Below, piece by piece: positions 3,113 through 63,883 of a stretch of 64,000 nt of DNA. The position numbers and the translations under genes are program-made. Each line of letters opens with the position of its first letter. Within the stretch, counting starts at the first letter, position 1. A model generated the notes under the pieces. The model saw nothing but the letters and a program-made list of their open reading frames with translations, was not told where the DNA came from and did not search any database. Source of the DNA: Amphibalanus amphitrite (Eukaryota; Arthropoda; Thecostraca; Balanomorpha; Balanidae); the NCBI RefSeq assembly GCF_019059575.1, contig NW_024882917.1:62001-126000 (forward strand). The letters are read 5' to 3'.

Positions 3113-3610
3113 AACATATATAAGTGTGGAATTCCTCCCCAAATTGTGATTGTATTCGTGGATCAAACGCTGTTCAAGAGTGCGGGAGACGGGTCCGGTC
3201 GCAACGATTCAGAACTTCGTCCTTAACCCTCGCCGGCACAGGCCATTTTGAGTCCTTCGACGGCACAAGGGGGGGGGGGGTACGACCCCCCCTTGCCGTT
3301 TGGCCCCTGATCGAGCTAGAGCTTCGCGGAAAAAAGCGAGCGTGTTGACCGTCACGAGACGAAGCCGATGATACCCAATTTTAAGGTCCTAGGTCATTGG
3401 TTGACCTTGCAGGTCAGGTCAATGACCCGAAAACCGGGAAAATCGGGACCTGTTAGAAAGTCGTAAAGTGTGGCTGCTATGTGGTTTTTCGGGGTGCTGA
3501 TCACGAATATCGTGTTAGTTTTGATCAGAGATGATGTCTTTAAGCATTTAGACCAGGTCGGGTCAGGTCAGGTCAGGTCAACCGGTAGGGGTTGTGACGG
3601 GTATTCGTAA

Positions 3611-5912
3611 TAGGGGAAGCCGGGGGAAGCCCGGCATAGTAAGCTCTTTTTCATTTTTATTACATACCATATGTGCTGTATAAAATGTTGATAGCCTGTT
3701 AGCTAGCTAAGTTCATTGGCCGTGTTTTCCCAAAAATTCGGTTTCGTGGAATAAGTATAAGGTTGAGAAAATCGAGTTTTAAAAAAGTGTTGATTTTTCT
3801 GGGGTAAGCCCGGCATAGGGGTAACGCCGGCCACCTCCCCAGCGCTTTACAACGAGTTGATGAAACCATTATGTGTCTTCCAAACATTAACGGAAAGTGA
3901 AATATTAAGGTACTGATTAGCTCTGGACATCTTAGAGTTTATTTCACTACTGATATTTTAGCTAGCGTCTACCACATATACAGTACAGGTCGATGAAAAT
4001 CGTGATGCAAAATTCACAAAAAATGTGTATTTCAAAATTCCTTAAAATTTATTTTTCTTTTTACCTTAACCCGCGCCGTGCTGGGGGGGGGGCGTTTTTA
4101 CGCCCCCCCCTCAGGTTTTTCGCGAATATCTCAAAAACGGCGGCGCGCAGCGCCGCCGTTTTTGGTACACGTGTTCCTACATCATTTCCGCACATTTTGT
4201 GAAAATTTCAGACCTAGGCCGTTCAAGGTCAGGTCACCAGGTCACGTCAAGTGACCTTACCTCAGAAAAAGTTCAAAGGCTCGCTATAGCTACACCGACT
4301 GAACGATCACTTTGAAACTTTCAGCGATTGATATGAGTAACAGTATGTATAAAATGTATATCTCGGATTTTTGATATCTGTGACCTAAGGTCAGGTCAAT
4401 TTTGCGACCTCTCCATTATAATGGGAGAAAATTGAAATGCGCCTCTTTTGGACGAATATCGTTCAAAACGCTCTCAAACATCGGTTCATAGGTAAACATG
4501 ACACACTGAATAGGAAAAATGCACCTGTGACCCCTCTGTGTGCCCCTGAGGTCATCTCAGGTCATGAACGGTCGCCAGCAGTTGTTTGGCTATAACTTTT
4601 GATAGAGACGTGCTAGAGCGGTGAAAACACGTCAGATGTGTTCAGCTCGACGATACGGATCGACTGATATGCAACATGACCCTTTTCGGTCAGGTCATGA
4701 CCTTGACCTGAGGTCATATTTTCAAAATGACCTTTCAAGGTCAACGAATAGTTCATTCGACGCGTCTCGACGAGAGGAACACGATGCTGGCAAAAGTAAT
4801 GTCATGGCGCTTATGAGTCAAAAGTTATTGACGAAAAAACGTTTTTCGTAAAAACGGCTATTTTTGGAGTTTTTGCCCTCTGGAGGCTAAACCGTTGACC
4901 TGAGGTCAAATCTGAGAACATTACTCAGAAAGGTCTGTAAAAGGGCTATCGAATGCGCTTTTCCGCGGCGCTGTAGCTCTATCGGTTCCCGAGATAGCCG
5001 TTGGCAGTTTCCAAAATGTTGAAATAGTCAACATTTTACCTTTGGTGACCTCTGGTGACCTGACCTTTGACCTGACCCAAAAAATGACCGAAGTGTTTTC
5101 GTCCTTATTTTTGACGCTCTTTCGATTGCCGCTTACCGCGTGTCGCTACGTGGCCCAGGAGCCGAGTTAGACGGGGGGGCGTGAAAACGCCCCCCCCCCC
5201 CCCCCCAGCACTCGGCGGAAAGTTCAGGCCACCAGCACGGCGCGGGTTAATGCATCATATTGCATATCATTCGACTCGGCTGATGAAGAAGAACACAACG
5301 ACACCATTTTTGAAGCTCTAGCTTCATTGTCTGTCGCGTTATCTGCAAAAACGTAGTTTGACCCTAGTTGACCTTAAGTGACATGACTGGCTTTGTCTAT
5401 GATAACTTGTTTATTTTCGAAATTTATCTTTGATCTAGGTGTAAACCAATCCTGCTCAGTACCTATTATCTCATGGAAAACAATGGTTTAGTGGCATTGC
5501 TCTCGGTTGGGGGTAAGCCTGGCCACTCGCCCGGGGTTACCCCAATGTGCTAATTTTTATTTTAGAACAGCGATATTCGAAAAAAAATGTCATACTTAAG
5601 CCAGCCTGCCTCGTCACCCCTCACTACAAACACTTAAACGGTCCTTACATAACATTCGTATAAATATTAGTACTGTATGGTATAACATTAACAGTGCAAC
5701 ATATCTCACTTTTTAGCTAAAAACCCTTAAAATATCATTTTTGCGCTATAACTTTAACAATATGCAATTTCTGTTAGCCTTAACTTTTTGCTGGCGTTAC
5801 CTTAGCTGCCACGCTGAAAGGACAAACAGTTGAGCATTTTATTGTGAATAATTTAGCCGGAAACGAGGTGGCCGGGCTTCCCCCGCGCCCGGGCTTCCCC
5901 CGGCTTCCCCTA
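3611..5912. mobile_element. TA-flanked DNA transposon nested in subfamily A element
   Basis: The dinucleotide TA (3611-3612 and 5911-5912) flanks inverted ends beginning GGGGAAGCCGGGGGAAGCCC. Related subterminal motifs (GGGGTAAGCCCGGC) occur at about 3801 and 5511. The uninterrupted subfamily A copy at 56688-57600 has the matching empty site near 57078-57092. TA duplication fits Tc1/mariner/pogo-type transposition. There is no transposase frame. About 1.1 kb remains after the nested element at 4066-5250 is removed. Sequence at 5251-5400 resembles the core of subfamily D, so this element is itself composite. Confidence 0.8.
4066..5250. mobile_element. TTAA-flanked CCC...GGG DNA transposon, innermost (subfamily B)
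   Basis: TTAA at 4066-4069 and 5247-5250, with inverted ends CCCGCGCCGTGCTGG. The left end continues into a G-run, CGTTTTTACG and C-run hairpin (about 4082-4110), then a perfect palindrome with 13-nt arms at 4133-4163. The core is full of TGACCT/AGGTCA motifs. Relatives are at 19976-23028 and 29428-30634. Confidence 0.9.
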
Positions 5913-6755
5913 CGTGTCAACCGCCTCGGACAGCTTCGTAACATGTTACGAAGGCACCAAAACTACTTCGTAAATGTTCAAATGGTTACTAAATTCGAAT
6001 TCAGCTCCAAAAACTAGCCTAGAAACATGTAAAACTCGAAAAAGTGAACCGTGGTCACCCGAGGTCACCAAAGGTCAATGACCTGACCTGACCTTCAGGT
6101 GACCTTGATACCCACCCTAATGCATGGGAGCAACATCAAATCACATGTTTGAACATTTTAAACCACGAAAAGCTTGCAAACGCGCGTCTAATGCGAGCCG
6201 ACAAGCGCCGAACCGCGATTTCGGCCAAACATGGTCACAGAAAAGAGGTCACAGGTCAAAGGTCATTGGGGTCAGGGTCATGAAATTTTCAGGGTAGGTG
6301 TAAAATTGATCAATGCGAGGGTACTGAAAGTTACGTCGCGATCGGCCGCTTTTTACGCGAGTTATTCGCGAAAAACCTTAGGGGGGGTTGCATCAACCCC
6401 CCCCCCCCCTGTGCCGGCGAGGGTTAAGTTGAGTTTTCGCCAGGAAATAGCAATTGTGTTGGAAAAAGGTAACAGCAATGTTGTATGATCATTTCTGAAC
6501 AGAACGGTATAAATTTCATTGCACTTCCACAAAGTTCGATTTGTTTACCCATGTCGTGCTAGAACTGGCGATCCGCCCAGTGTGCGGCGCCCGGTGACCG
6601 AGTGGTCGGCCAATACCAGTTGACCTTGAGCTGACCTACTCTGACCCCGGGAGGTAGACTGACCCGCTGTTGCTAGGTGGGCAGCGGACAACTGGCTGGG
6701 CCGCTCAGCGAAATCGGAAATGTTTGTTTTCAAATAAAAGCGTGATTAGTAGGAA

Positions 6756-7867
6756 CACAGATAACAGTAGTACAGTAGTTTTAACTGTACAGTAGTAGTT
6801 ATAACAGTAGTTATAACAGTAGTTTTGCTGTCGAGTGAAAATCACCTTAGGGGTTGGAAATTTGGCGATTTTTCCTTAGCTAGAGGCGTATTCAGGATCA
6901 GTTTCTCGGTGGTAAATCTGGTCACACTTAACCCTCGCACGACCAGGCCATTTCTCATAACACGAACGACCAGGGGGGGGGGGGTGTTACGACCCCCCCC
7001 CTGGCGTTTCGAAACGGAAGGTCGTAGAGCTTAGCGGAAAAAACCAACGGATTGCTCTCAACGAGATCTCGCGATTGGTGGTATATTTTTTGGTCCTAGG
7101 TCAACATTTGACCTACTTTTGACCGGTCAAAGGTCAAATTTTCGGAAAAATAGACTTTTTCAACTTTCCGCGGCGATTGCGGCAACACGGTGGGAGATAT
7201 CGACTTGAAACCTTCACTATCGTGTTCCTTGATCAATTCTCTATCGTTTGGTATGTATTTCGTTTCCCTAGCTCTAAAAATGGCGCGTTGGGAGCGCCGG
7301 AAGTCGGCAAGGTTACAGTCGGCGGCAGAAATTCGAAAAATCAAAATTTAAATTTTTGAAATCTGATTGTATTTTTGGATTTGGAAGGTCCATTTGCTCC
7401 TTATAGAAGCTAATATTGCTGCATATTCCCATTGAGGTGACAAGAATTAGCAAAATAGTGGTTCGGGCGCTTTTCAAAAATAGTACCGGACGCTGTTCCT
7501 CTTATGACGTCATAACTCCGTGACCTGACCTGACCCGGTCAATTTTCTTGCACCACACGATAGCCAATGCTTGCCCCAACATGCATGGGAAGTTTCATTA
7601 TGATCCATCAAACAATGTGGGTATCACCGGCAGAAAACCTAGGGATTCGGCGCACACGTTTGGTAACTGTCGGCCGGAGGCTGTACCTCTTATGACGTCA
7701 TAACTCCGTGACCTGACATGACCCGATCAATTTTTTTCGGCAAAAGATGCGCAAAGGTTGCCCCAGAGGGTATTGAAAATTTAAGCCCGCTACGACAAGC
7801 CGTTTAGCGTGCACTTCGAAAAAACCTCAGGGGGGGGGGGGGGTTATCTGTACTACTGTTATCTGTG
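6756..7867. mobile_element. DNA transposon with 20-bp perfect TIRs and 7-bp target duplication
   Basis: CACAGATAACAGTAGTACAG at 6756-6775 is perfectly inverted at 7848-7867. The direct repeat GTAGGAA flanks it on both sides (6749-6755 and 7868-7874). Imperfect CAGTAGT repeats follow the left end. Most of the interior is a truncated TTAA element. The 7-bp duplication and TIR do not let me name the superfamily; hAT, P and Mutator-like are all possible. Confidence 0.75.
6928..7843. mobile_element. truncated TTAA CCC-type transposon
   Basis: TTAA at 6928-6931 is followed by CCCTCGCACGACCAGG, then a G-run/C-run hairpin with a TGTTACGA spacer at about 6965-7005. The right side stops inside a G-run at about 7830-7843. 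No C-run, GGG terminus or TTAA follows, so the right end is lost. Two copies of a block containing CTTATGACGTCATAACTCCG, about 190 bp apart (7500 and 7688), suggest an internal duplication. Confidence 0.75.
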
Positions 7868-7899
7868 GTAGGAAATAAAATAAATGTAGGGAGCAAAAT

Positions 7900-7953: not shown

Positions 7954-7954
7954 G

Positions 7955-8624: not shown

Positions 8625-8637
8625 AAGATCGAACGCT

Positions 8638-13776: not shown

Positions 13777-14960
13777 TTAACCCGCGCCCAGATGGGGTCT
13801 GCCGAGCAACGCGGTCTGATGGGGGGGGGGGCCATTTTGGCCCCCCCCCCTCAGATCTCGAGAACCACGCAACATAGCGACAAGCGGTAAACGGTGTTGG
13901 ATAGTCCCAGCGGGGAACTACCTTGTGACCCAATTTCATTGACCTCGGTCAAACCGATGACGTCACAGGTCAGGTCAAAGGTCGAATTTTCACCGTTTAC
14001 AGGCATTTCAAGAAATGCGTTGTAAAATCGAGTAAAATGCATTTCATTGAAAATCATCGATGGAGAAATGTTCTTCAAACACATATTTTGCTATTTGAGG
14101 TCACTGATACCAGGTCAGGTCACAGAGGTCAGGTCACTGAGGGGGTCACAATATGAAAGTGTCGTGTGATACATGTTTTATGGTCCATTTTACATGACAA
14201 ATGCGATTATGTGGGTCAGACAGACTTTAGGGCCAGCTTAGGTCACGTTTTGGTCAAGGTCAGGTCAAGGTCAGGTCAAGGTCAGGTCAAATTAGGTCAA
14301 ATTTCAAAGTTGATATTTTTGCATAAAATGGGTATCGATTCGATGCAGCTCGTCACGGGGAGTTCAATGGTGGTCTCCGTTTTGCGCTACGAGGTCTAGA
14401 ATTGCTAAAAATTGAGTTCAAAAATTTGACGTCATCAATTTTTAACAGTTTTTTCGCTATAACTTGGCCAAAAAAAGAGGTATCGATCTAAAATTTGGTA
14501 TGTATATCGAAGAGCGCAGGGACTATCACATATATTCCGGTTTTTTCGAAATTCGAAAATTTTTTGGAAATTTTTTGAGTTTTTCTAAAAAAATCAATTT
14601 TTTTGATTTTGGGGGGTCAAAATCCCAAAATTTCGAAAATCCGAGATAGCAGTTTTGTAGCGCCGTCTTTTCTCTACACAACCACATAAAGAACTTTAAA
14701 ATTGCTTGTTAACTGTAGAATTGGTGAGCGTTTCAAGATGTCATGTTTTTTGCACATTTTTGCTCGAACATGACCTCAGTTTGACCTCAATAACTCCTGA
14801 CCTGAGGTGACCTGTGACTTGAAATTTTGTGTGAAGGTGTCAAATTGATGCCCGGTAAGGTACCCAAAATTTGGCGGCGCTGCGCGCCGCCGTTTTCTCG
14901 CTATTTAAGAAAAACCACAGGGGGGGCCAAAATGGCCCCCCCCATCAGGGCGCGGGTTAA
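13777..14960. mobile_element. TTAA-flanked CCC...GGG DNA transposon (subfamily G)
   Basis: TTAA at 13777-13780 and 14957-14960, with termini CCCGCGCC and GGCGCGGG. The G-run/C-run hairpin has a GGCCATTTTGGCC stem at both ends (about 13818-13850 and 14920-14945). The left end carries a short insertion relative to the right. Near the right end is the GGCGGCGC...GCGCCGCC palindrome. The core holds three exact TCAAGGTCA motifs at 11-bp spacing (starting 14254, 14265 and 14276). Confidence 0.9.
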
Positions 14961-19679: not shown

Positions 19680-20628
19680 TTAACCCGCGCATGACTGGGG
19701 ACTGGGGAGCCCCTTCCGGTTTTTTTTGCAATACCTTCTAAGCCGCTGAATGTATCAACACGAAATAAGCAGTATCCTCGGCTGCACGAATTTGGTACCT
19801 TGTGTCTAAAGGAAAATTTCGTAGCTGGAAATGACGTCAGAGTGCATGTCGGCCGATTTTGATGCAAAACTGAACTACGGAAATCGCTCGAAAGTCGAAA
19901 GAGCTTACATAGACCCGATTTCTTTACATGAGACGACTCAGATACAAAGGGCAGATCTAAGTGTTATCTCGGATTTTAGCCCGCGCCATGCTGGGGGTGC
20001 TTTTACGCCCTGTTCGTGCATCAGTTCCGCACATGTGAAAATTTCAGACCCGGGTCGTTCAAGATCAGGTCACCAGGTCACGTCAAGTGACCTCAGGAAA
20101 AGTGCAAAGGCTCGCTATAGCTACACCGACTGAACAATCACTTTGAAACTTTCAGCGATTGATATGAGTAACAGTATGTATAAATGGTAATCTCGAATTT
20201 TTGTATATCTGAGAGCTAAGGTCAAGCCAATTTTGCGACCTCTCCATTATAAGTCAATGGGAGAAAATTGAAATGCGCCTCTTTTGGACGAATGTCGTTC
20301 AAAACGCTCTCAGACACCGGTTCGTAGGTAAACATGTCATACTGAATCGGAAAAAAAATGCACTTTTGACCCATCTGTGTGCCCCTGAGGTCATCTCAGG
20401 TCATGAACGGTCACCAGCAGCTTTTTAGCTATAACTTTTTATAGAGACGAGTAAGAGCTGTGAAAACACGTCAAATGTTTTCAACTCGGCGATACGGATC
20501 GACTGATATGCAACATGACCTTGACCTGAGATTAAATTTTGAAAATGACCTTTCAATGTCAAAAAATAGTTCAATCGACGCGTCTCGACAAGAGGAACGC
20601 GATGCTGCCAAAAGTAATGTTGTGTCTT

Positions 20629-21544
20629 TTAACCCTCGCCCGCACATGCCATTTTCCCATCCTAGAACGCACATGGGGGGGGGGTAGTTGCAACCCCCCC
20701 GCGCCATTTCGTTCCTGTTGGAGATAGAGCTTAGCGGTAAAGACCAAAAATATTCTTTGCGAAGAGACGAATCTAATGATACCCAGTTTTACCTTCTCAG
20801 TTCAGTCATTGACCTTCCAGGTCAGGTCAAACTAAAAAATGTTGCTGTTTTGGGTCACCGTTGGATATCAAGTGCGCTGCTTATCAAATACCGATGACGA
20901 TGCCGTTTTCTGGTGCCAAGCCAGCTAGAACCTCTTTGTCACACTACCCGACCAGAATTTTGCTGCTGAGGTCATTTCAGGTCAAGTTAGGTCAAGGTCA
21001 ATTATATGTGGTTGTATGTCTGTGTGTGTCTGTGTGTATACTGATGTGTGCACCGATTGTTTTTGGTTCCATATTACATGAAATCATGATCTGAGAAGCT
21101 TTTACCAAAAAATGCAGTCAAAAAACTTCACAAAAAGTAAATTCGGCTTGCCTAAAACGCAATTATGTTAGATGACCTAGGTTGACCTTGACCCTGACCT
21201 TGACCCCTGTACATCGTCGAAAAACATGTTCCATGATAGGTGGGAGGTAAGACTGGCAAAAAAGGCCGAAATCAGGGTGTCAAAAGCTCACAAGGCCCAT
21301 GGCAAACGCAAGATGTTGAGAATTGGCCATTTGGGTCATGACATGACATGAAAAACAAGGTCATATCTCCGAAACCAAAAATCACAGAAACTTGAAATTT
21401 TCAGTGGACATCAAGAAAGGATAGAGGAGCAGCTATACGAAAAATCAGCCTTCTAGCTCCAAAAATGTTGAGTGCAGAGCAGAAAGTCTACCTGGGGGGG
21501 TGGCAACCGTCCCCCCCCCCCACCCATGTGCGGGCGAGGATTAA
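20629..21544. mobile_element. TTAA-flanked transposon (subfamily C)
   Basis: TTAA at 20629-20632, CCCTCGCCCGCACATG, and the inverted right end CATGTGCGGGCGAGG then TTAA at 21541-21544. It is 916 bp. G-run/C-run hairpins with GTAGTTGCAAC and GTGGCAACCGTC cores lie at the two ends. A TG-rich stretch is at about 21010-21050. The same subfamily in reverse orientation occupies 34171-36260. Confidence 0.9.
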
Positions 21545-22590
21545 TTAACCCTCGCCCTGGCAGGGCATTTTTCATAACACGGCCTGGCAGGGGGGGGTCG
21601 ATGCGACCCCCCCCCCCCCTCGCGATTGGCTCCTATGGCACCTAGAAACACCAAATTTGGTAGGTAGGTGGGCCCCTGGAGTTCTCGCCCCTGTGCAAAT
21701 TTGGTTGCTCTAGGTCAATATTTAGGGGGGTTTTGGGGGGTATAAATATAAAATTTTTGCTAAAAACAGGTCAAAAGTTTTTCGCTTATAACTTTTGATC
21801 TAATTAAGATAGAGCAAAAAGAAAAGCACCATTGAACTGAGCACTTCAAGGCGCGTCGAATGATATACCTTTTAGCTTGCTTAAATGTACTTAAAGTTTT
21901 TCTTAAATTTTAAGTAAACTTAAATTAATAAATTAAGTTCAAGTTAACTACATTGCATCATATCGCATATCATTCGATTCGGCTGATCACCAGGAACACA
22001 ATGATACCATTTTTTAAGCTTTAGCGTCATTATGTGCCGAGTTATTAGCAAAAACGTCATTTGACCTCAGTTGACCTCATTTGACCTGACCCATGGATAA
22101 TTACACCATACAAAGAAGCACCAAGTGACCTGCTGTTAAGTACTGTGGTTTCAAAGCACAAAAGTGATAGAGCAAAGCGGATATCTCCAGTATTTTCCGA
22201 ATTTAGTATTTTCCCATAGGCTTAATATTACGACGTAATGACCTCTAACTGACCTCAGGTCAGTGACCTCAAAAAGCCCGAACTATATGTTATACAACTC
22301 GGTGAACTTAGCACATCCTGAAAGTTTGAAGGAAATCAGTCCAAAACTGTGAGTTGGACGGGTGCAAAAAGAAAATTGAAATTTGACCATGACTTTGTAC
22401 CGGTTTTTCTGACCTGGTGACCTGACCCAATGTCACCCGGACCTGAAATTTACAGGTCATGTGTAAAAAGGTTGCCTCATAAGCTGTGCCAAATTTGGCG
22501 GCGCTGCGCGCCGCCGTTTTTACGCTATCTTCGAAAAACCTTAAGGGGGTGTCGCATCGACCCCCCCCCCCCTGCCAGGGCGAGGGTTAA
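21545..22590. mobile_element. TTAA-flanked transposon (subfamily D), abutting the previous one
   Basis: TTAA at 21545-21548, inverted ends CCCTCGCCCTGGCAGGG, and TTAA at 22587-22590. It is 1046 bp. The G-run/TCGATGCGA/C-run hairpin is at the left end (about 21590-21620) and the GGCGGCGCTGCGCGCCGCC palindrome near the right end. A second copy in reverse orientation is at 24938-26470. Confidence 0.92.
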
Positions 22591-23809
22591 GTTAAAAGTT
22601 ATTGCCGAAAAATATTTTTTTCGTGAAAACGGCTATTTTTGCATGTTCTGCCCTCTGGAGGCTAAACCGTTGACCTTAGGTCAAATTTGAGAGCAATATT
22701 CAAAAAGGTCTGTCAATGGGCTATCGGATGCGCTTTTCCGCGGCGCTGTAGCTCTATTGGTAGCTCTATTGGTTTCCGAGTTCGCCGTTGGGAGTTTCCA
22801 AAATTATTAAAATGGACTAAATTTGACCTTTGGTGGCCTCTGTTGACCTGACATTTGACCTGACCTTAAAAATGACTCGGGTCTTCCCATCATTATTTTT
22901 GACGCTCTTTTGACTGCCACTTACCGCGTGTCGCTACGTGGCCCAGGAGCCGAATTAGAGGGGGCATGGACCCCCCCGCCCTCCAGCACGACAAGGAAAG
23001 CACAGGCCACCAGCACGGCGTGGGTTAAAGAGTTTGCAAATTTTGAGAGTGTAACATACAACTTCTTTAATCATTTTCCTATTTTTTTCGTTTTTAGAAA
23101 AAAAAACGGAATATATGTGATTAAACACATACCTACCGATGATCTACTCCAGGAAGTTTTAGGCAAACGTATTCAAAAATAGCTCAGTTATACGCTTTGT
23201 AGTTCATATTTCACCATTTTTTTTTACATCATACTTTCAGTACGTTTTTTGATAATGTAGAGCAAATGAATAGCTCCATCGTGTTCCTGAGCTCAAACTG
23301 CATCTGACAGATGCCTTATTTGTTGAAAAATGTCAATTTAGAAAAATGTGATCCCTTGTAACTGAAAGTGATCTGACCTTAGGCTATATTCAACTGAAAA
23401 TTACATAAAATGATGCAGACGACACCGTGTTAGAAATATATCGCTGAAATGGGCCGTAAAACATGTGTCACGTGACCGATACATGTTAAAAAAAATCCGT
23501 GACCTATGATGACCTGGCCTTGACCTGAAAAGTTTTAACTACAAGTTTGGCACTCTCAGGATATAAGGCGTATATCAAGGAGTGAGTAAACCAAAAATGA
23601 GCCTGATCGGACTTGTCGGCGGCCAGAGGCTAAATTGCGAACAAGCAAAAATGCCGATAATTTTTACTTTGACCTGCCCTGTGATGTCATCAGACACCGT
23701 TTGAATTTTGAAGATCAGCCCAGTAGTTTTGGAGATAGGAGCGGGGGGAGGGCTTTGTAGGGCTCAGTCAGCCGCGTGAAAATACCCGGCCGAGTCATGG
23801 GTGGGTTAA

Positions 23810-24937: not shown

Positions 24938-26470
24938 TTAACCCTCGCCCTGGCAGGGGGGGGGTCGATGCGACCCCCCCCCCTAAGGTTTTTCAAAGAT
25001 AGCGTAAAAACGGCGGCGCGCAGCGCCGCCAAATTTGGCACAGCCTATGGGGCAACCTTTTTACATATGACCTGAAAATTTCAGGTCCGGGTGACCTTGG
25101 GTCAGGTCACCAGGTCAAAAACCGGTACAAGGTCATGGTCAAATTTCAATTTTCTTTTTGCACCTCTGCAACTCACAGTTTTCGACTGATTTCCTTCAAA
25201 CTTTCAGGATGTGCTAAGTTCACCGAGTTATATAACATATAGTCCGGCTTTTTGGAGGTCACTGACCTGAGGTCAGTTAGAGGTCATTACGTCGTAATGT
25301 TAAGCCTATGGGAAAATACTAAATTCGGAAAATACTGGAGATATCCGCTTCGTTCTATCACTTTTGTGCTTTGAAACCACGGTAATTAACAGCAGGTCAC
25401 TTGGTGCTTCTTTGTTTGGTGTACTTATCCATGGGTCAGGTCAAATGAGGTCAACTGAGGTCAAATGACGTTTTTGCCAATAACTTGGCACATAATGATG
25501 CTAGAGCTTAAAAAAATGGTACCATTAAGTTCAGGGGCGAATCCAGAAAATCTCCAAGGGAGGGGCCATTAGAAACCAGGAGGCCCCCCCCCCCATAATC
25601 CCACCTGTTGGAGGCCCCATCTTCCCACTTGTTGGGCCCCCCCCCCCCCAAAAAAAAACTGCGTCTATTGAGCTTATCTAGCTGTTCAGGCAACATCTCA
25701 ACATCTGTGCAGGCTTGGAGGCCCTCTGTGCATGTTAGGAGGCCCTGTAAAAGTGGTCATCTCTGTGAGTATAAGAGACCTCCAAGTTATGAAAAGCTTT
25801 ACCAATCTTCTAACAAAGAAGTCTTCTCAGCTAGTTTTCTAAGAAATAACTAAGTGGGTAGGTTAAAAAAACTCATCGGATTTCGGCCACTTTATTTTCA
25901 GGAGGCCCCCTTTTCAGCTTTTTAACTTTTTAACTTTTTATTTTATTTTTGAAAAAAAAATCGGCCAAGGGGGGCCATGGCCCCCATGCCCCCCCCCCCT
26001 TGTATCCGCGCCTGATTGTGTTCCTGGTGATCAGCCGAATCGAATGATATGCGATATGATGCAATTTGGTTAACTTGAACTTAATTTATTAATTTAAGTT
26101 TACTTAAAATTTAAGAAAAACTTTAAGTACACTTAAGCAAGCTAAAAAGTATATCATTTGATGCGCCTTGACGTGCTGAGTTCACTGGTGCTTTTCTTTT
26201 TTCTCTATCTCAATTAGATCAAAAGTTATAAGCGAAAAACTTTCGACCTGTTTTTAGCGAAATTTTTACATTTATACCCCCCAAAACCCCCCTAAATATT
26301 GACCTAGAGCAACCAAATTTTCACAGGGGCGAGAACTCCAGGGGGCCCACCTACCTACCAAATTTGGTGTTTCTAGGTGCCATAGGAGCCAATCGCGAGG
26401 GGGGGGGTCGCATCGACCCCCCCCCTGCCAGGCCGTGTTATGAAAAATGCCCTGCCAGGGCGAGGGTTAA
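24938..26470. mobile_element. TTAA-flanked transposon (subfamily D, reverse orientation) carrying a hAT insertion
   Basis: TTAA at 24938-24941 and 26467-26470, ends CCCTCGCCCTGGCAGGG and its inverse. It aligns in reverse to 21545-22590 apart from a 0.49-kb insertion at 25532-26014. Subtracting that gives about 1042 bp against 1046 bp in the other copy. Confidence 0.92.
25532..26014. mobile_element. non-autonomous hAT-type element nested in subfamily D copy
   Basis: Left end CAGGGGCGAATCCAGA and right end TGTATCCGCGCCTG are imperfect inverted copies of the CAGGGGCG-type terminus common in hAT elements. Flanking octamers ATTAAGTT (25524-25531) and ATTGTGTT (26015-26022) match at 6 of 8. The copy at 21545-22590 supplies the empty site. 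The interior has runs of C and poor coding potential. Confidence 0.8.
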
Positions 26471-40309: not shown

Positions 40310-41344
40310 TTAACCCTCGCCGGCCGAGGGGGGGGGGCGGGTGCCGCCCCCCCCCCCCATAGGGTTTTTTCGCGATAGCTCCGAACACGTTGGCGATAGA
40401 GAGCTGAAACTTGGCGTATCTGACCTTCGATCCAAGCCGCATCTTTTGACACCAATCGCATTTTTGGGTCAGGTCAGGTCACTGACCTATGACGTCATAA
40501 GTGAACCTCTGCACGGTCTTCAGATGTCGCAACTTCGCAACGCCCTCACTGCCAGAGAAGATGTTACAGGGAAAGGAAACTTGCAGGATCTTGTATCCAT
40601 TATGAGTCTCACAATTTGTATATCTCGGATTTTTCCTAAAGGTCATATGAGGTCAGGTCATTTTCGTGACATCACCATTATAAGTCAATGGGGAAAAATG
40701 AAAACTGCTATTCTGGCGCCGGGAACGATCTCCAACTATCTCAAGCACACAGAATCGTGATTTGATGCACTCCTTGCAAGGTGAGATGCGTCACTTTTGC
40801 AATGTTGACCTTGCGTGACATCATTTATGACGTCATCAAGGTCATATTAGTTTTTCGTCAATAACTCTTGATCAAATTGAGCTAGCGAGTCGGGAAAGCC
40901 ACCAATGGACTCAGGAAGACCTGCCAAATCGAATGATATGCGACATGACCTCTTTCGACCAACTTCGTGACCTGGGGGTGCTGACCTGACCTTGACCTGA
41001 GGTCAACACCCCAAGTTGACCTGACCCGAACACAAAGTATACCATTCGACGCGCCTGAGCAAGGCGAACACGATGCTGCCAAAATCGCGGCTCTGCGGCC
41101 GTTTTTTGCGAAGTTATTCACCAAAAACTGAACCGTACCCTGGGGCACTTGACCTGACCTCAGAGGTCACCGGTTGACCTAGGACCTTAAAATCGGGTAC
41201 CAATCTCTGCGTCTCGTAACGGCGCACACGCTCGTTTTTTCCGCGACGCGCCAGCTCCACCAGGGGCGAAACGGCGAGGGGGGGTCGTACGCCCCCCCTC
41301 GGCCGGCGCGTATGTAGAAAACCAATAGGTCCGGCGAGGGTTCT
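40310..41344. mobile_element. TTAA-type transposon (subfamily F)
   Basis: TTAA at 40310-40313 followed by CCCTCGCCGGCCGAGGGG. The right end reads CCGGCGAGGG followed by TTCT (41341-41344), a decayed TTAA. The left hairpin of G-run, CGGGTGCCG and C-run is at about 40328-40360. The core contains TATGACGTCATA-like and AGGTCA motifs. A diverged copy is at 62841-63883. Confidence 0.8.
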
Positions 41345-45995: not shown

Positions 45996-46188
45996 GGAGC
46001 TCTTAGTGTGGCTATTTAGGGCCCATGAGGTGCTTTAACGAGCCCATGGGGCCCTTCAGCGAAATATGGCGAAAATATGGCGAAGTATGGCGAAATATGG
46101 CCTCAGCGGTCAATGGCGCCGCAGGGCCCCTCGTACCCGAGGGTCCCTTTGAAGTTCGAACCCGAGTCCTCTTAACACTAGAGATGTC

Positions 46189-46440
46189 AATCGGATACCA
46201 ACTTTTTGGTATACCGATACCAAACCGATACCAACTTGGTATTTGGTATTTCAATCCTAATGTGTTTGGTATTTTGTTGGTATTATGAACCCTTACTAAT
46301 GTATAAGAGGCTAAGAAATTGGTAAAAAGTTGGTATTTCCCTCATCTTTCAAAGTTGGTTCGGTTTCGGTATTTCCCCACGGTTTTGGTTGGCATTTGGT
46401 TTGGTATCGGTATTCCGATTTTCTGTAATTGACATCACTA
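46189..46440. mobile_element. hAT-type miniature element (uninterrupted relative of 29178-30642)
   Basis: It starts TAGAGATGTCAATCGG and ends ATTGACATCACTA. The interior is the GGTATC/TTGGTAT repeat-rich sequence seen, reversed, at 29178-29427. The flanking octamers are poor matches, partly because a TTAA element inserted immediately to the right. Confidence 0.8.
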
Positions 46441-46441
46441 G

Positions 46442-47628
46442 TTAACCTTCGCCCCAGTGGGGGGGGGGGGGCATATGTTACCACCCTGTCGCGTTTTTTG
46501 CGTATGAATAAAAAACCGCGGCGCGTAGCGCCGCGCCGCTTGGGGTAGCTTTTGGTACATCAATTTTGGACAATGTGTGAAATTTTTGACCCCAGGTCAT
46601 GTCAGGTCAGGTCACCAGGTCAAGTTAACTGACCAAGCCTAAAAAAAAGTTTGCAATCATGTCCAGCCTGCAATGTTTGTCAGAAAGGTTTTAAACTTGG
46701 TGGATTGCATGCTGTTATGGGCACCTACAATTTGTATATCTCGGATTTTTTATATCCGTGACCTAAGGTCAGGTCAGTGGCGTGACCTTTCCATTACAAG
46801 TCAATGGAGAAAAATGAAAATGCCTCTAGATCCGTGTGTACGCATAGGAACAGTCCAAATATTTCAGAATCACAATGATTTAGTCCACTCGTGACGACCA
46901 AGGGGTCTTTTTTGCTGATAGCCTCTAGAAAGGTCATCCGAGGTCATTTGAGGCTACAAACAGTTTTTTGCCAATAACTCGCGATTGGAAAGAGATAGAA
47001 CGCTGGGGATGGTTTCATTGTGTTTGTCTTGTTGAGACGCATCGACTGATATGCAACATGACCTTTTCCGGTCAAGTCATGACCTTGACCTGAGGTCAAA
47101 ATTTTCAAGTTGACCTTCCAAGGTCAAATTATAGTTCATTCGACGCGTCTCGGCGAGGGGAACACGATTCTGGCAATAGAAATGTCGTGGCTTTTTGTAG
47201 TCGAAAGTTATTGTCGAAAAACACTTTTCGTAAAAACGGCTATTTTTGGAGTTGTTGCCCTCTGGAGGCTAAACCGTTGACCTGAGGTCAATATTGATAA
47301 TGACCTTTTCAAAAGAAGAGTTCAAAAGCTACCGATTGTTGTTCCATGCGTTTTCCTAGCTATCATAGTTCCTGAGATAGCGGCATGTTTTCTGAAAAAT
47401 ATCATGACAATTGGCAAATTTTGACCTTTGATGACCTCTGGTGACCCCAATATTGCTCTAAGGTGAAAAATGACCGAAATACTTTCAAACGTACGCATTG
47501 AGAGCTATCGACTACTTTTTACCGCGTCTTTCTAGCCCTCGTAGTTTTTGAGTTAAAGGTGGGTGGTAACATATGCCCCCCCTCACTAGGGCGAAGTTGG
47601 CTGAGACCGCCACTGGGGCGCGGGTTAA
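46442..47628. mobile_element. TTAA-flanked transposon (subfamily E)
   Basis: TTAA at 46442-46445 and 47625-47628, ends CCTTCGCCCCAGTGG and CCACTGGGGCGCGGG. It aligns along 34551-35722 with few differences. Near its left end is the CCGCGGCGCGTAGCGCCGC palindrome. The right end carries an extra inner copy of the terminus (CACTAGGGCGAAG). Confidence 0.92.
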
Positions 47629-54092: not shown

Positions 54093-55270
54093 GTAAGTCG
54101 TTGTATCTTCAGCATAATAATACTTATCTCACGAGTGCCATTTCCAGCAAAGATCGCAGCCTTTGTTTCGGTTCATGTTGTTGAATTTCCTTGAGACCCT
54201 GTTGGACCGGGTAGGGGGAGGGTGGTGGGGTGGGTATCATTGCGGGCATTTCCCAGCGTCGGAAATCAACGTGTTTTTTTATTTGTTAACCCACGCCTCA
54301 CTGGGGTATGTGCTCTAACGCGCCCCACAGCACGTTACAGCACGTTACAGTGGGGGGGGGGGGGGCTCCTAACTCCGAAACTACTGGGCCGATTGTCAAA
54401 ATTCAAACGGCCCCTGGTAGCCCTGGAAATATTGTTGAGCGAAGCCTAATGTCATTGACCTCGAGGTCATCGATGACGTCACAGGTCAGGTCAAAGTAAA
54501 AATATCAGCGTCTTGGCACTCTGGGCGCCGGCCAACAAATCAGATCAGGCTCATTTTTTGTTTGCACACTCGTGAATATATGCGTAACATAACCTGAGGG
54601 TACCGAACTTGTACTTCGAATTTTTCAGGTCAAGGCCATCTCATCCCAGGTCACGAAAGCTTTATATCGTGCATCGGTGACGTGAGACATGTTTTATGGT
54701 TCATGTAGGCCATATATATCGAAATCAGTGTTGTATGTGTCAGTTTAGGCCATTTTAGCTGAATATAGCTGAGGTCAGGTCAGGTCACTTTAGGTCAAAA
54801 ATGGTCAAATTTTGAAGTTGACATTTTTCAACAAAAAAGGTGTTTGTCAGATGAAGTTCACATATATTCAACGCATATGTGTTCAAACACATATAGACCC
54901 CGTTTCCATGGGCATCACTGATCCAGATCAGCAAACTTAAATCGTATTATATTTCTCGAACTCTTCGTTACATGATATAATTCCAAGTGGATTAGGCTTA
55001 TATAATCAGTTAATCCCTTATTTTCATTTTCATATATTGTCTAACTATACTGGATTAGCTAATCCATTTTTACTGATCCGGATCAGTGATGCCCATGGAA
55101 ACGTGGTCATATTCTGCTTTTTTTTCATTCAGAAACGTATATGTAAAAAAATAAAAAATACAATTTCTGAGTTTTTATATTTATAATTTTCAAAATATTC
55201 AACATTTCGAAAGTCCGAAATCAGTTTGGTAGCCCTGTAGAGTCCACCCATGCAAAAAAAAGGATCTAGC

Positions 55271-56437
55271 TTAACCCTCAAGGCGGTGGGGGGGGGGGCA
55301 TTTTTTGCATCCATCTTTAGTTTTTTTTTTCGATATATCTCCAGAACCGCTGCGCCGATCTTCACCAAACTTTCAGTACCCTTTTGCACATTGTGACCAA
55401 ATTTTTTTTCCAAAGGCTATGATAAGTTGGCCGCTACGTCGGAGTGACGTCATTTCTGCCATTGTCGACCAAAAAAAAAGCTTCGCGGGAAGAGCTGTCA
55501 GGTCTATAAATTTGATTATGCATAAAAATGTTCAAGACATGAAATGTGTAGAATTACCAGGGCTACTATACTGTTCTCTCGATTTTGTTTTTGAAGTTGA
55601 CCCCAAAAATAAAAAGAAATAGATATAATAGCCAAAAAATCCCAAAAGTTTTTCGATTTTCGAAACAAACGGAATATATGTAATAGCCACTATGGACTTC
55701 TATTCACATTCCAAGTATTAGATCGATAACTCCTTTTTGCCAAGTTATAACAAAAAAAAAACTGTTCAAAATTAATGACGTCAAATTTTCAAACTCGATT
55801 TTGGCAATTCTAGACCACAAAGCGCAAAACAAAGACCACCATTAGACTCGCCGTGACGAGTGGCATCGAATCAATACCAATTTTATGCGAAACTATCAAC
55901 TTTGACCTGAAATTTGACCTTTTTGACCTGACATTGACCTGACCTCCACCAGAAAGTGACCAAAAAACCGTCCCTGATGGTCTTATAACCAACACCATTG
56001 AGGCGAATATGAAAAATTGGCCATAAAACATGCATCGCACAACCCTACTTAGTAAAGATAGGTTCATGTGCTGACCCTTGGTGATCGGACCTGGTATTAT
56101 CAGTGACCTCCAATAGCAACATATGCTCGTATAATAGGCAACTCACGCCCTATCGCTGATTTTTGACAAAATGCCCTTTACTCGATGTTGCAGCGCATTC
56201 CTTAAAAGACCCGTGAACGGTGAAACATTTTATCTTTGACTTGGCCTGTGATGTCATCGGTGACCCCGAGGTCAATGAAATTGAAGTTCCCTCGACAAAT
56301 TTAACAAGGCTATCGAACGCCATTTAAATTTTACCGATCCGTCATAGTAGCTTCGGAGATTCGGGGGGGGGGGTCAAAAATCCCCCCCCTCCCACCGCGC
56401 GGAAGGTAGCCGGGAGGCCCACCGCTTGCCGGGTTAA
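55271..56437. mobile_element. TTAA-flanked transposon (subfamily J)
   Basis: TTAA at 55271-55274 and 56434-56437. Left end CCCTCAAGGCGGTGGG; right end CCCACCGCTTGCCGGG with an inner repeated CACCGCG motif. G-run on the left, and a G-run/TCAAAAATC/C-run hairpin near 56364-56390 on the right. Confidence 0.8.
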
Positions 56438-56691
56438 AACTCAGATCTTGAGAGCGATTACCGTTGTTCAATGCTTTGCATCAAAATCGGCCGAACATGA
56501 TGTCACTCTGGCGTCATTTCCGGCCGATCTATAGTAGCTACGAAAATTTTATTAGTGCACAAGGTGTCAAATAAATTGATGCAGCCGAAGGTCCTAAAAG
56601 CTTTGTTTTGATACGTCCAGCGGTTTTAAAGATATTGCGTAAACACGAGAGGGGCTATGAATAGCCCTCCCCACAGTAGGGTGGGGGTTAA
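56438..56691. mobile_element. orphan right end of a TTAA transposon (subfamily L)
   Basis: This reads, in reverse, like 19690-19975 and ends in CCCCACAGTAGGGTGGGGG then TTAA (56688-56691). The matching left end is not found in this nest. Confidence 0.55.
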
Positions 56692-57600
56692 CCCTCGCCC
56701 GTATTGGTGTTTTTCAGCCACGAACGTTTAAGGGGGGGTCCGTTGAACCCCCTCCTTGCCGTTTCGCCCCTGATTGAGCTAGAGCTTCGCGGAAAAAACG
56801 AGCGTGCTGCCCGTGACGAGAGAAAGCCGATGGTACCCAATTTTATCCTAGGTCGTCGGTCCTAGGTCATCGGTTGACCTTCCAGGTCAGGTCAATGACC
56901 CAAAAGTGGGGAAAACTGGGACCTGTTAGAACGTCGTAAAACGTGGCTGCTATTGGGTTTTTTAGGGAACTGATCACGAATATCATGTTAGCTATGATCA
57001 TAGATGATGTCTTCATGCATTTAGGCCAGGTCGGGTCAGGTCAGGTCAGGTCAACCAGTAAGGGTTTTGCCGGGTATTCGTAGTAGGTGCACTAGGTGGC
57101 AACCGCCTCTGACAGCTTCGTAACATGTTACGAAGGCACCAAAACTACTTCGTAAATGTTCATATATGGTTGTTAAATTCGAAATCAGCTAAAAAAACTA
57201 GCCTAGAAAGATGCTGATAAAACTCGAAAAAGTAAACCGAGGTCATCAAAGGTCAATGAACTGACCTGACCTTCTGGTGACCTTGACATCCACCCTAATG
57301 CATGGGAGCAGCATCATATCCCATGTTTGAACGCTTGAAACCACGAAAGGACTGCAAACGCGCGGCAAATGCGAGCCGACATACGCCGAATCGCGATTCC
57401 GGCCAAACATGGTCTCGAAAAGTAGGTCACAGGTCAAAGGTCATTAGTCAGGGCCATTACATTTTTTAGGGTAGGTGTAAAATTGATTATAACTCGAGGG
57501 TACTGAAAGCTTCGTTGCGGTCGGCCGCTTTTTACGCGAGGTATTCGCGAAAAACCGAGGGGGAGTCCGTTCGACCCCCCCCTATACGGGGGAGGGTTAA
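56688..57600. mobile_element. TTAA-flanked transposon (subfamily A, uninterrupted)
   Basis: TTAA at 56688-56691 and 57597-57600, ends CCCTCGCCCGTATTGG and the near inverse CCTATACGGGGGAGGG. It is 913 bp and aligns along the outer parts of 3223-6427. It preserves the empty site of the TA element there. Confidence 0.9.
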
Positions 57601-58158
57601 CAAGCCAAAACGTTGCTAATTTTTATTTTGATCTGACCTGTGACGTCAACGGTGATCTCGAGGTCAATAAAATTAGGTTTTGCTCGACAGTTTTTCCAGG
57701 GCTATCAGACGCCGTTTCAGTTTTGACAATCGGCCCAGTAGTTTCGGAGTTGGAGCGGGGGGGGGGGGTTCTATAAATAGCCCCCGCCTCCCCCAGTGGA
57801 GTGCGTTACAGAACATACCCCAGTGGGGCGCTGGTTAGGAGTAGAATTTTTGAATTATTGCCAACACTCAACACTGCACCTCATGGCAATTAATTCATTA
57901 TAGGGCATTTTACCTGAACCAGCCTCTGGCCTAATGTCCCAAATTTGCTAAATTCCTCACCCTACAAATCCCCTGTTCTATTAGATGCTGCCATTTTTTT
58001 AAAACAACTTATCTTAAATCCTTGTTTCATCAAACTGGGAGCTAGGTCACGGGACACTGCGAGTCAAGGTGGGAGGGGTAGGAGATAGAGTGTCACTGCA
58101 GCACACACAATCAATCTTTCCATTGGTTTATCTTATATCAATGCCTGCTCTTTTCCAG

Positions 58159-60838: not shown

Positions 60839-62537
60839 TCTACTATTATAAATCTTAACCCGCGCGGGGCTGGGGGGGGGGGTAAATTTTACCCCCCCTC
60901 GCGAATTTTTGCGATATCTCAAAAACGGCGGCGCGCAGCGCCGCCAAACTTTCAGTACCTTTTCTTACATCAATTTGACACGTTCCCTGAAAATTTGAGC
61001 GAAATCCGTCGGAAAATTTTTGAGAAATTGACGTTTTAGTGACGTCATGTTCGCCATTTTCGCCTCAAAAACGGCAAAAGTTCAAACGCCGCTAACATCT
61101 TCATTTTTAAAGGAATCAAGACGTAACAAAAAAGGTTATACGTAATTTTACTTTGTCTATCAAATGGCTATCTCGGTTTTTTGAAAATTTTGGATTTTGG
61201 CCTAAATTTTTTTCAAAAAACTGACTTTTTTGGCAAAATCATTATAAAATCCAAAATTTTGAGTTTATCGAAAAAACCGGAATATATGTCAGAGAAGTGG
61301 TCTATGTGCACCTACATACCAAATTTTAGAAGAATCGGTTCAAAAATGTGGGAGTTATTCAAAATTTTATGACGTCACGACACACAAAATTTTTGAAAAA
61401 TGACTTTTTTGGAAGTTCTAGACCTCGTACGGAAACAAAAATAGCACCATTCGATTCGTCGTGAAAAACTGCATCAGATAGACACCTTTTTAGGCCTTAA
61501 CAACCAACTTCAAAATTTGACCTCACTTGACTTGACCTTGACCTGACCTCGACCTGAAATTCATCCAGAGGTGGTCCATATCACTTATTGAGTGTGCCTA
61601 TTGAATTCTATGAGTAAAATGACCCATAAAATATGTGTCGCACATGCCCTTTTCTATATTTTGTTTTTTGGTGACCTGACCTGACCTGACCTGACCTTGA
61701 CCTTGACCTCTGAATGATATTGTATGCAACGAATATTGTCTTGGTAGCCTAAGAACACGTTTTGGGCGATCAGTCTCAGTCCATGACTCCATTTTTCGGC
61801 AACTACGGTGCAAGGCCGATACTGTAGAAACTTGCAATTTGTACCCTTGACCTGACCTTGACCTTGACCTCAAACTTTAAATTAAGTACATGTTTTTAGT
61901 AGTTCGTGATGAGAGCTTTCGATTGGCGTTTGAATTTTCCAAATCGGACCATTAGTTCGGGAGATAACAGGGGGGGTAAAATTTACCCCCCCCCCCCCAG
62001 CCCCGCGCGTTCGGCTGGAGACCCCAGCCCCGCGCGGGTTAAAAAGTACCACGCCGCCCACGTCGGGGTTACTCCCTAAAAGGCTTATTACGGCGCCGTC
62101 GATTGACGCAGGAGGGTGAAATTTTCACGACTCGTGGGTCACGTCATTCAACAGGTCGTATTAAATTTTGGGCACGATTCGGTCGGGGGTGCGCCCGTGG
62201 CGCGTGCTCATGTGCGCTATAGGGTTAGCATTAGAATCGGCAAAAACAGGCTATTGCTCGGAAACGGTAAGGGCTACGGGGGTGAAATTTTCACGCCAAG
62301 TCGGTCGCGTGCACTAATTTGTCGTATTAAATTTTCGAGGGGGTGGGTTCAGCGGTGTGCACGTGGTGGGGCCGCGACCGGCGCCGAGCAGAAAGCACGT
62401 GCTTTAGGCTCAGTTGTTCGCTTGGAAAACTGAGTGAAAAGCATCAGAGCCGGGAGGTCGTTGAACTTTGACAACGAATACCGGCGCCGGGCACCCCTCG
62501 CCAAGGCGATTCGCCAGTAAATACGATAAATTTGTGT
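60839..62537 (+). mobile_element. Helitron-like element, 5' part of copy 4, split by a TTAA element
   Basis: TCTACTATTATAAATC at 60839, interrupted at TTAA (60855) and resumed at 62043. It continues with the same order of subrepeats as copies 1-2 up to GCCAGTAAATACGATAAATTTG, where similarity ends before the TAGGG array. Confidence 0.75.
60855..62042. mobile_element. TTAA-flanked transposon (subfamily K)
   Basis: TTAA at 60855-60858 and 62039-62042, inverted ends CCCGCGCGGGGCTGGGG. G-run/TAAATTTTA/C-run hairpins lie at both ends, and the GGCGGCGCGCAGCGCCGCC palindrome near the left. AGGTCA/TGACCT repeats are dense at 61500-61870. It is inserted into TCTTAAAAAG of Helitron copy 4; copies 1-2 give the empty site. 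Confidence 0.93.
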
Positions 62538-62840
62538 TTGCCACAGTGTATATAAATACAGTGGCGGCAAATGCGCTTGGTCACGTGACCAAATCTGCAC
62601 GTGCGGTTGTGGCGAGGGCACTTCCCGAAACTCTGGTGCCAACGGCCTCGCGGCGCCCATAGAGAATACATGGGACCTTTTCTTTTCAGACCTATCGTGT
62701 CTAAACCAAGCCATTTAGTGCAAGGATACGACTGGTTTGAGATTCAGTAGTCTTTTGGCTACAAGTTGGCATAAGAAACGTATTTTTATCGGCAAAATTC
62801 GCAAAGTACCAGGTGGTTTTCCGATACCCTGCACGCCTCC
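62538..62840. other. no gene seen
   Basis: Unique-looking sequence right of the Helitron remnant, with no supported feature. Confidence 0.35.
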
Positions 62841-63883
62841 TTACCCCCGGCGGCCGACCGGAGGAGTCAGTAGCGCTCCACTCACGACTTTTGGCGATAG
62901 CTGAAAACACCTTACAGCTAGAGGGCTGCTATTTGGCACACCTTATCTTTGCTTCCATACGCATCTTTGGAAACCGTCTCAGGTCAGGCATTTCCGTCTC
63001 AGGTCAGGTCACTGACTTATGACGTCACACGTGAACCTCTGCAGTAGTCCCAAAATACCGAAACTTCGCAATGCCCTCGGTGCCAGAGGAGCTGTCACAG
63101 CGAGCTGATACTTACAGGACCTAGTATCCTCTAGGAGTCTCAAAACTTGTATATCTCAGATTTCTCCTAGAGGTCACATGAGGTCAGGCCGATCGCGCGA
63201 CGTCACCATTACAAGTCAATGGGGAAAATATGGAAACTGTAATTTTGACGCCGACAATGATCTAAACCTAGCTCAAGCACATGGAATCGCAATTTCATGC
63301 AATTCTTGCAATGTCCAATGCTTCACTTTTGCATCTTTAACCTCGCGTGACGTCATTCATGACGTCACAAATGTCACAAGTTTTTTCGTCAATAACTCCT
63401 GATAAAATTGAGCTGGCAAGTCGGAAAAGTCGCCAATAGACTCGGGAAGACCTACCGAATCGCCATGCGATATAACCTCCTCCGACCAAGTTCGTGACCT
63501 GAGTGCCTCTGACCTGGCTTTGATCCGATGTGAACACCTTATGTTGACCCCACCCAAACAAAAGTGTACCATTTTGACGCACCGGAGCATGACAAACATG
63601 ATGGTACTAAAATAGCGACTCTGCGCCGTTTTTTGACAAAGTTATTTTTCAAAACCCGAAATCGTATTTTGGCCCTCGGGGCACTTGACCTGACCCTCAG
63701 AGGGCATCAGTTGACCTGAGACTTTTAAACCGTGCATCAATCGCTGCGTCCCCGGTCCCGTAACGGCACACATGCTCGTTTTTCCCGCGAGCCTAGCTCA
63801 ATTAAGGCGAGGGAGTCGTACCCGCCCACTCTCGCGGCTGGGGCGTAGGTATGTAAAAAAAAACTAAGAAGTCTGGTGATGAT
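62841..63883. mobile_element. degenerate TTAA-type transposon (subfamily F)
   Basis: TTACCCCCGGCGGCCGACCGG at 62841 resembles the left end of 40310-41344. The core follows that copy (CTTATGACGTCACACGTGAACCTCTGCAG matches TATGACGTCATAAGTGAACC), and the right end decays near GTCTGGTGATG. G- and C-runs have been lost. Confidence 0.65.

Follow-up and report, generated by a model that had tools for sequence, protein, structure and literature searches.

Short TTAA elements with G/C-palindrome ends in Amphibalanus amphitrite, very probably non-autonomous members of the Trichoplusia ni-type piggyBac lineage

The stretch analysed here (the window) comprises 64 kb of contig C1420 of the Amphibalanus amphitrite genome, which totals 807,550,619 bases in 2644 contigs. 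It contains a group of short mobile elements flanked by TTAA, which are very probably non-autonomous elements of the Trichoplusia ni (T. ni)-type piggyBac lineage, with one short and one long end that carry a box (X) and a palindrome with G-run and C-run arms. A preliminary description had counted about 20 TTAA units of 0.9–1.2 kb with CCC...GGG ends. In agreement, we find 18 elements with both ends paired (E01–E18), 885–1243 bp in length after removal of nested insertions.

Elements, target sites and movement

The elements are listed below with neighbouring relatives that fall outside the 18. The strand of every element is its orientation from short to long end; we assigned short and long ends from end readings, which in E04, E05 and E15 meant the box and not the G-run. 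The core is the segment between the G-run and the C-run.

3223..6427, minus strand: E01, long end left, short end right, split by a TA-flanked element (3612-5931) containing E02
4066..5250, plus strand: E02, 1185 bp, core CGTTTTTACG, X = GTGCTG at bp 9-14, second X 27 bp inward in the long end
6928..7839, minus strand: deletion derivative of the autonomous element B (see below), long end whole, short end broken within the hairpin; outside the 18
13777..14960, minus strand: E03, core CCATTTTGG
19680..23809, plus strand: E04, old copy with decayed hairpins, contains E05
19976..23028, plus strand: E05, old copy with TTAG/TTAA flanks, interrupted by the adjoining E06 and E07
20629..21544, minus strand: E06
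21545..22590, minus strand: E07, core TCGATGCGA
24938..26470, plus strand: E08, E07 subfamily, carries an insert of ~480 bp
29428..30634, minus strand: E09, core TGTTTGAACA, sits in another repeat whose second copy is the empty site
34171..36260, plus strand: E10, E06 subfamily, interrupted by E11
34547..35726, plus strand: E11, ATAA duplicated at both flanks, the single ATAA in E06 being the empty site
36724..37633, plus strand: E13, divergent, 16-bp tip repeated at +27 in the long end, without AGGTCA
40310..41344, plus strand: E14, box offset 28
46442..47628, plus strand: E12, 96% identical to E11
54286..56691, minus strand: E15, old copy, box offset 47, contains E16
55271..56437, plus strand: E16
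56688..57600, minus strand: E17, 86-87% identical to E01
57604..57837, no strand assigned: fragment akin to the long end of E15 (75%); outside the 18
60855..62042, plus strand: E18, core TAAATTTTA
62843..63884, plus strand: decayed relative of E14, 73.6% identical, ends not intact; outside the 18

The 4-bp TTAA target duplication of the piggyBac superfamily is evident in this group: TTAA lies at both flanks in 15/18 elements and ATAA at both flanks in E11, while E05 and E14 have one altered copy each. Across the window, TTAACCC occurs at 19 sites (3.9 expected) and GGGTTAA at 16 (5.7 expected). Nesting, a feature beyond the preliminary description, as are the asymmetry of the ends, the 27-bp box duplication and the internal motif grid presented below, is found at several places: E04 holds E05, which holds the adjacent E06 and E07; E10 holds E11, E15 holds E16, and E01 holds the TA-flanked element that in turn holds E02. 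This last element (3612-5931) is a separate mobile element with inverted ends of the form TAGGGGAAGCCGGGGG..., and is lacking in E17, the sister of E01.

Two insertions can be compared with their empty sites. E06 has a single ATAA where E11 enters E10, and the joined flanks are identical at 92/94 positions. For E09, the unoccupied second copy of the host repeat differs at two bases (TTGAC versus TTAAT). The comparison is weaker for E06 and E07 in E05, with a gap at the junction, and for E12 it is an alignment of the left flank only. A short repeat with TTGACATC-like ends is present at 29178-29432 and 46186-46440; its two copies are 92% identical, and a different TTAA element either adjoins or interrupts each of them.

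The exact 26-mer hairpin of E02 has 425 copies genome-wide, compared to 0 for the reversed control. Of eight such loci fetched, seven hold full-length copies of 1180-1192 bp, each flanked by TTAA left and right and set in unrelated surroundings; their aligned bases match E02 at 99.4-99.6%, so the family has moved recently. The eighth locus aligns over 296 bases at 81% and lacks a recognised TTAA end.

Unequal ends and the G/C palindrome

Each of the 18 elements combines a short end with a long end. The tip (TTAA|CCC) is followed by box X (bp ~8-16, in front of the hairpin) and by the palindrome of G-run, core and C-run; in the long end, box and palindrome are moved 27 bp inward and a second box X remains beside the tip. 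The first run of at least six G starts at bp 14-16 in 13/18 short ends (bp 19-20 in two, absent in three) and at bp 41-45 in 15/18 long ends (bp 48 in E05, bp 63 in E15, none in E04). Box X varies by subfamily and is common to both ends of one element: none of 5000 permutations equalled the match between short-end X and own long-end X (13 representatives). The two boxes of the long end share a mean identity of 0.83 at offset 27. The maximum at the remaining offsets of 10-49 is 0.46, and different elements share 0.45; the repeat is strongest at bp ~9-16 (11 elements). The best offset is 27 in 13/18 elements; E16 has a tie of 34 and 27, and the others are E13 (23), E14 (28), E15 (47) and E17 (25). 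Taken on its own, the long end of E13 (37588-37633) repeats its entire 16-bp tip at +27, as if it were the product of a tandem duplication of the tip.

The same layout recurs in an extra genome sample of 20 stretches of 10 kb at preset places (200 kb in total), whose ends come partly from subfamilies already present in the window. Here, a G-run stands in register at 21 of 57 TTAACCY sites (9 short and 12 long ends), compared to 3 + 3 of 1412 other TTAA sites. Among the long ends, the duplication fits best at an offset of 27 in 9/12, of 26 in two and of 15 in one. As a rough estimate, nine strict short ends per 200 kb would correspond to tens of thousands of copies if the sample is typical. The family thus has the ends of a T. 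ni-type piggyBac element, that is, asymmetric, with the box repeated at 27 bp and a palindrome at both ends. The displacement stays fixed across about ten subfamilies with differing boxes and palindromes, which suggests that the spacing, and not the sequence, is the rule.

The window contains 24 hairpins of the form G6+...C6+, and 21 of these are placed 17-48 bp inside a TTAA-CC-like end (6.8% for random 27-mers). The 22nd, at 41278, lies inside an end with a changed TTAA, and those at 25969 and 44819 are not inside such ends. All five hairpin stems named in the preliminary description are present, and 26 hairpins parsed by rule have G-runs of 7-17 and C-runs of 4-13. None was parsed in 10/36 ends, namely both ends of E04, E15, E11 and E12 and the short ends of E05 and E16; E04, E15 and the short end of E05 are old, decayed copies. 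In decayed ends the automatic palindrome score misplaced the centres, and run positions were used instead. The cores are palindromic (61/110 pairs, compared to a mean of 32.6 and a maximum of 52 in shuffled cores; 41/85 compared to 24.5 for distinct cores), and they agree at 0.81 between the two ends of an element (12 elements), compared to 0.52 between subfamilies. In intact short ends the palindrome centre lies at bp 26-32.

According to excerpts of the paper that solved the piggyBac structure (PMC7351741), the DDBD of the T. ni transposase sits on bp 7-16 and a CRD dimer on a palindrome at bp 17-33, and bp 34-63 of the right end (RE) are nearly identical to bp 7-35 of the left end (LE). Since the hairpin of the Amphibalanus elements has a corresponding position and displacement, it is best read, by analogy, as a T. 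ni-type CRD palindrome with homopolymer arms, that is, as a double-stranded two-fold protein site. The preliminary description had found the homopolymer hairpin unfamiliar for piggyBac; this does not apply to the internal palindrome, a known piggyBac feature, and it does apply to the homopolymer G/C arms, which are unusual. Between its two suggestions, a transposase recognition structure or protection of the ends, the former is preferable, as the hairpin stands where piggyBac has its CRD palindrome (PMC7351741, excerpts). Nothing in our data speaks for end protection, at which no test was aimed. In open-licence full-text literature we found no account of G-run palindromes in piggyBac ends, with subscription papers and Repbase outside the search.

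Instead of serving as a double-stranded protein site, the hairpin might act as an extruded cruciform, a quadruplex or an end-protecting cap. Its homopolymer arms go beyond the needs of a 17-19 bp protein site, and single-strand folding of seven tested hairpins gave -11 to -20 kcal/mol (z -0.8 to -4.3). The folding is, however, not always special, with shuffles as good in 67/200 cases for 60872-60898 and in 18/200 for 13821-13850. Moreover, position, two-fold core, agreement of the cores from end to end and 27-bp displacement all follow the T. ni CRD palindrome, and the cores vary by subfamily as expected of a recognition sequence. We therefore regard a structural role of this kind as improbable.

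Run length is variable within the E02 subfamily, with G 8-15 in eight short ends and G 8-17 in nine long ends. Long homopolymers are prone to error, and a range of 8-17 among copies of one subfamily, seven of them 99.4-99.6% identical to E02, could indicate that the long runs are assembly artefacts. Against this, G/C runs around fixed cores are found at matching positions in different elements, and the 425 exact copies of one 26-mer stand in unrelated flanks with no counterpart in the control; the artefact explanation is thus very improbable. The presence of the G/C runs is trustworthy, their exact lengths are not. Replication slippage or sequencing error would account for the variation, which might be tolerated because core and position stay constant.

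Autonomous relatives and origin of the short elements

Searching the genome with the PF13843 (DDE_Tnp_1_7) profile yielded at least 116 matches (116/232 candidates were scored; best E 8.9e-88), compared to none in 14 control genomes. We read ten of the 116 loci, chosen by ourselves. Two of them are autonomous elements with the ends of this family, and the autonomous relative with the same termini and a piggyBac transposase that the preliminary description had proposed to look for is thereby found:

Contig C33: element A, 4723 bp, TTAA on both sides, 645-aa open frame P0002
Contig C44: element B, 3975 bp, TTAA ends, 639-aa frame P0003, long-end box offset 27

The short end of A reads G8-CCATTTTGG-C9, and in its long end the box CCCTGGTG is repeated at 27 bp; the palindromes are centred at bp 26 and 55 in A and at bp 31 and 55 in B. 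The outer ~0.7 kb on each side of A align end to end with E02, E09, E11 and E12 at 60-72%. Transposase matches with the score of A are present also on C257 and C431 in different flanks, with both ends found on C431 and the right end on C257. B is related to the window directly: 6927-7279 matches B 5160-4807 (87%) and 7477-7839 matches B 1586-1224 (98%), with ~200 bp between them unmatched. Judged by this alignment, 6928-7839 arose from B by deletion.

Both transposases match PF13843 (A, 9.4e-60; B, 7.6e-70) and are closer to T. ni piggyBac than to piggyBat (P0002, 1.2e-56 versus 4.6e-21; P0003, 1e-73 versus 6.7e-31). The alignment of P0002 with the T. ni protein reaches residue 643 and runs through the CRD, which P0003 lacks in recognisable form. 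The segments TIDE, MDRYFTS and TKGGVD of P0002 align to T. ni piggyBac, and we take them to be the motifs holding the three catalytic Asp residues. A and B are accordingly autonomous copies that combine the same kind of ends with a PF13843 transposase, which in A presumably carries the catalytic triad.

A TTAA target duplication is known from Kolobok as well (PMC6004289, excerpts), and the units could belong to that or another TTAA superfamily and only look like piggyBac. However, the source gives RR/AG as the Kolobok termini, and here 35/36 ends begin with CC[CT]; in addition, the PF13843 transposases of the autonomous copies that have these ends are nearest to that of T. ni piggyBac. Tips and parental transposases thus lead us to reject Kolobok, an alternative named in the preliminary description, and other TTAA superfamilies (no Kolobok profile search was made), and we give this alternative next to no probability, less than any other considered here. 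The assignment to piggyBac made in the preliminary description stands on the TTAA duplications, the tips, the T. ni-like ends and the autonomous DDE_Tnp_1_7 copies.

Taken together, an origin within the T. ni-type piggyBac lineage is highly probable. The short elements would arise by internal deletion from such transposons, and a transposase supplied by autonomous copies of this genome would cut them at TTAA and paste them into new TTAA sites. If the solved T. ni complex is taken as a model, the DDBD would hold box X, and the two C-terminal CRDs would sit on the G/C palindrome. The additional box and palindrome of the long end might seat a second, inner transposase dimer at a fixed phase, which would make the ends unequal.

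Several observations weigh against this assignment. Eight of the ten loci read lack ends of this family as their own in the stretch read. The left end of the A copy on C257 is not at the expected place. The two ends of B have different X boxes, and the C-terminus of P0003 is the one without a recognisable CRD, its T. ni match stopping at residue 551. Excerpts of PMC2872659 quote the piggyBac-superfamily tip as CC[C/T]T, and half of the tips differ from it (CC[C/T]T in 18/36, CCCG in 13, CCCA in 3, CCCC in 1 and TCCT in 1). E04, E05 and E15 are too decayed for hairpins in register, and E11 and E12 have the G-run with an imperfect C-arm. The palindrome centres lie 1-7 bp further in than bp 25 of T. 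ni and shift with G-run length, a drift not obviously compatible with a rigid CRD site.

Among the eight other loci, L029, L030 and L031 are nearer to piggyBat than to T. ni piggyBac in their transposases (4.4e-31 versus 7.5e-21, 1.7e-27 versus 6.8e-10 and 3e-25 versus 4e-13, respectively). Their five ends (both of L029 and L030, one of L031) have neither G-runs nor a 27-bp box; the contrast between lineages is thus one of two elements against three, with L031 represented by one end, and this, too, counts against the assignment. An ordinary palindrome is centred at bp 24.5 in one end of L029 and of L031. A family-type long end near L030 falls outside that element's own ends. In the stretches read around L032, L034, L036, L037 and L038, ends of this family are absent, and a G/C hairpin at the edge of L036 (checked in L042) has no TTAA-CC end.

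Among the eight window frames of at least 180 aa, a LINE alone exceeds the cut-off and no transposase gene is found, shorter frames not being scanned. Likewise, 20 stop-to-stop frames of the window gave no Pfam match above the cut-off, an Rfam scan of the window gave none at the gathering score, and searching viral and genome contig collections for relatives with the end pattern gave 0 matches. The content of the window is eukaryotic, an L1-like reverse transcriptase being the longest reading frame. This LINE ORF2 fragment (9082-12051, 989 aa) matches RVT_1 (3.3e-38) and zf-RVT, and its top PDB matches are LINE-type reverse transcriptases. The window also features GGTAG/GGGTA pentanucleotide arrays with strong strand skew at 51769-51918, 52304-53185 and 59719-60444, with duplicated 0.5-0.7 kb blocks nearby.

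Internal motif grid and comparison with known systems

The interior of the elements is enriched in two motifs, AGGTCA, which we take to be a nuclear-receptor half-site, and TGACGTCA, presumably a cAMP response element (CRE), a bZIP-type site. AGGTCA/TGACCT occurs 276 times in element territory (31.7 expected) compared to 29 times outside it (26.9 expected), and all 16 window sites of TGACGTCA fall in element territory, with the fragment 57604-57837 included. AGGTCA is present in 17/18 elements and absent from E13; 4226-5070 provides an example of the grid. In the 200-kb sample, AGGTCA is found 392 times (115 expected) and TGACGTCA 39 times (4.2 expected), with neighbouring clusters mostly 150-189 bp apart.

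Spacings between motif clusters (n=65, from 17 elements: 12/18 of the window and 5/6 complete ones of the sample) have a median of 166 bp, with 50/65 at 135-201, five at 300-370 and ten elsewhere. The best period is 168 bp, with a power of 54.8 compared to a null maximum of 33.7 in 500 draws, odds that are optimistic because the null places clusters at random with no minimum distance between them and because the elements have a common ancestry. When 45 abundant hexamers were tested, the ten top scorers all overlapped AGGTCA. The parents carry the grid in the flanks of their genes, A having one site within the gene. Clusters of A lie at 153-171, 313-330, 475-496 and 643-656 bp from the left end and at 175-207, 339-378, 502-563 and 671-681 bp from the right end; those of B are about 187 bp apart.

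Between several subfamilies the hexamers are constrained: 3/129 hexamer positions changed in E02-E09, compared to 118/722 elsewhere, and 14/150 in E02-E11, compared to 187/672. Pooled over 12 pairs, 248/389 hexamers are kept, compared to 105/768 permuted hexamers (TGACGTCA, 4/18). The pairs E02-E05, E03-E16 and E04-E15 show no significant constraint, and copies within a subfamily show none either (p 0.41, 1 and 0.36), at low power with two or three hexamer changes per pair. Constraint between subfamilies fits selection for transposition before insertion.

Other observations speak against a spacing that was selected independently. The left flank of B has 188-bp tandem units (74%), the left flank of A a perfect 187-bp tandem duplication, located outside the grid clusters, and the right flank of A a 171-bp self-match at 68%. 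Given the tandem units in these flanks, tandem duplication is therefore one source of the grid, which may have arisen from nucleosome-length units with the motifs kept. Within the window, a tandem test with our own thresholds gave no internal match in 16/18 elements, E11 having a weak shift of 175 bp and E18 one of 323 bp.

As a tentative reading, which we find conceivable and would rather doubt than accept, the elements and their parents carry a nucleosome-scale ruler, in which selection for transposition maintains motif clusters at intervals of ~165-190 bp and lets the DNA between them drift. Host transcription factors bound in the linkers would then set the phase of the nucleosomes and leave the ends open to the transposase, and the transposon would thus recruit regulators of the hormone or cAMP type to open the chromatin in which it lies. 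If true, this would be a concrete case of a DNA transposon organising its own chromatin via host transcription factors. We found no AGGTCA/TGACGTCA grid in a transposon in the open-licence full-text literature, a search outside which subscription papers and Repbase fall. Together with the constrained grid, the 27-bp displacement kept across subfamilies is most worth following. The paper on the piggyBac structure calls the unequal ends puzzling and enigmatic (PMC7351741, excerpts), and they matter given that piggyBac is a standard genome-engineering tool; the roughly ten subfamilies with a constant displacement amount to a natural mutagenesis experiment.

Among known systems, coral CMITEs (Acropora) are piggyBac-type miniature inverted-repeat transposable elements (MITEs) whose interior is more conserved than their tips (PMC2872659, excerpts). 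Like the Amphibalanus elements, they form MITE families with differing tips and a common conserved interior; in contrast, they are ~100 bp long, and these excerpts name no G/C hairpin, 27-bp box duplication or motif grid. The piggyBat element of Myotis lucifugus has boxes at bp 11-16, 55-60 and 99-104 (offset 44) and an RE without a palindrome, as given in excerpts of PMC11707139. It shares the TTAA-targeting piggyBac superfamily and, at one of its ends, a box and palindrome near the tip, whereas box spacing here is 27 and not 44, and the match of P0002 is weaker (4.6e-21) and without the CRD.

T. ni piggyBac (LE35/RE63) is similar in its TTAA target, its CCC tip, a box (bp 7-16, here 8-16) that is repeated 27 bp inward at one end, and an internal palindrome at both ends that is displaced at one; P0002 resembles its transposase over core and CRD (E 1.2e-56). 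Unlike T. ni piggyBac, the window units are ~1 kb long, non-coding and high-copy, their boxes and palindromes vary by subfamily, and their flanks carry the AGGTCA/TGACGTCA grid. The family is thus a variant of T. ni-type piggyBac, in which the G-run and C-run arms of the palindrome are the unusual part.

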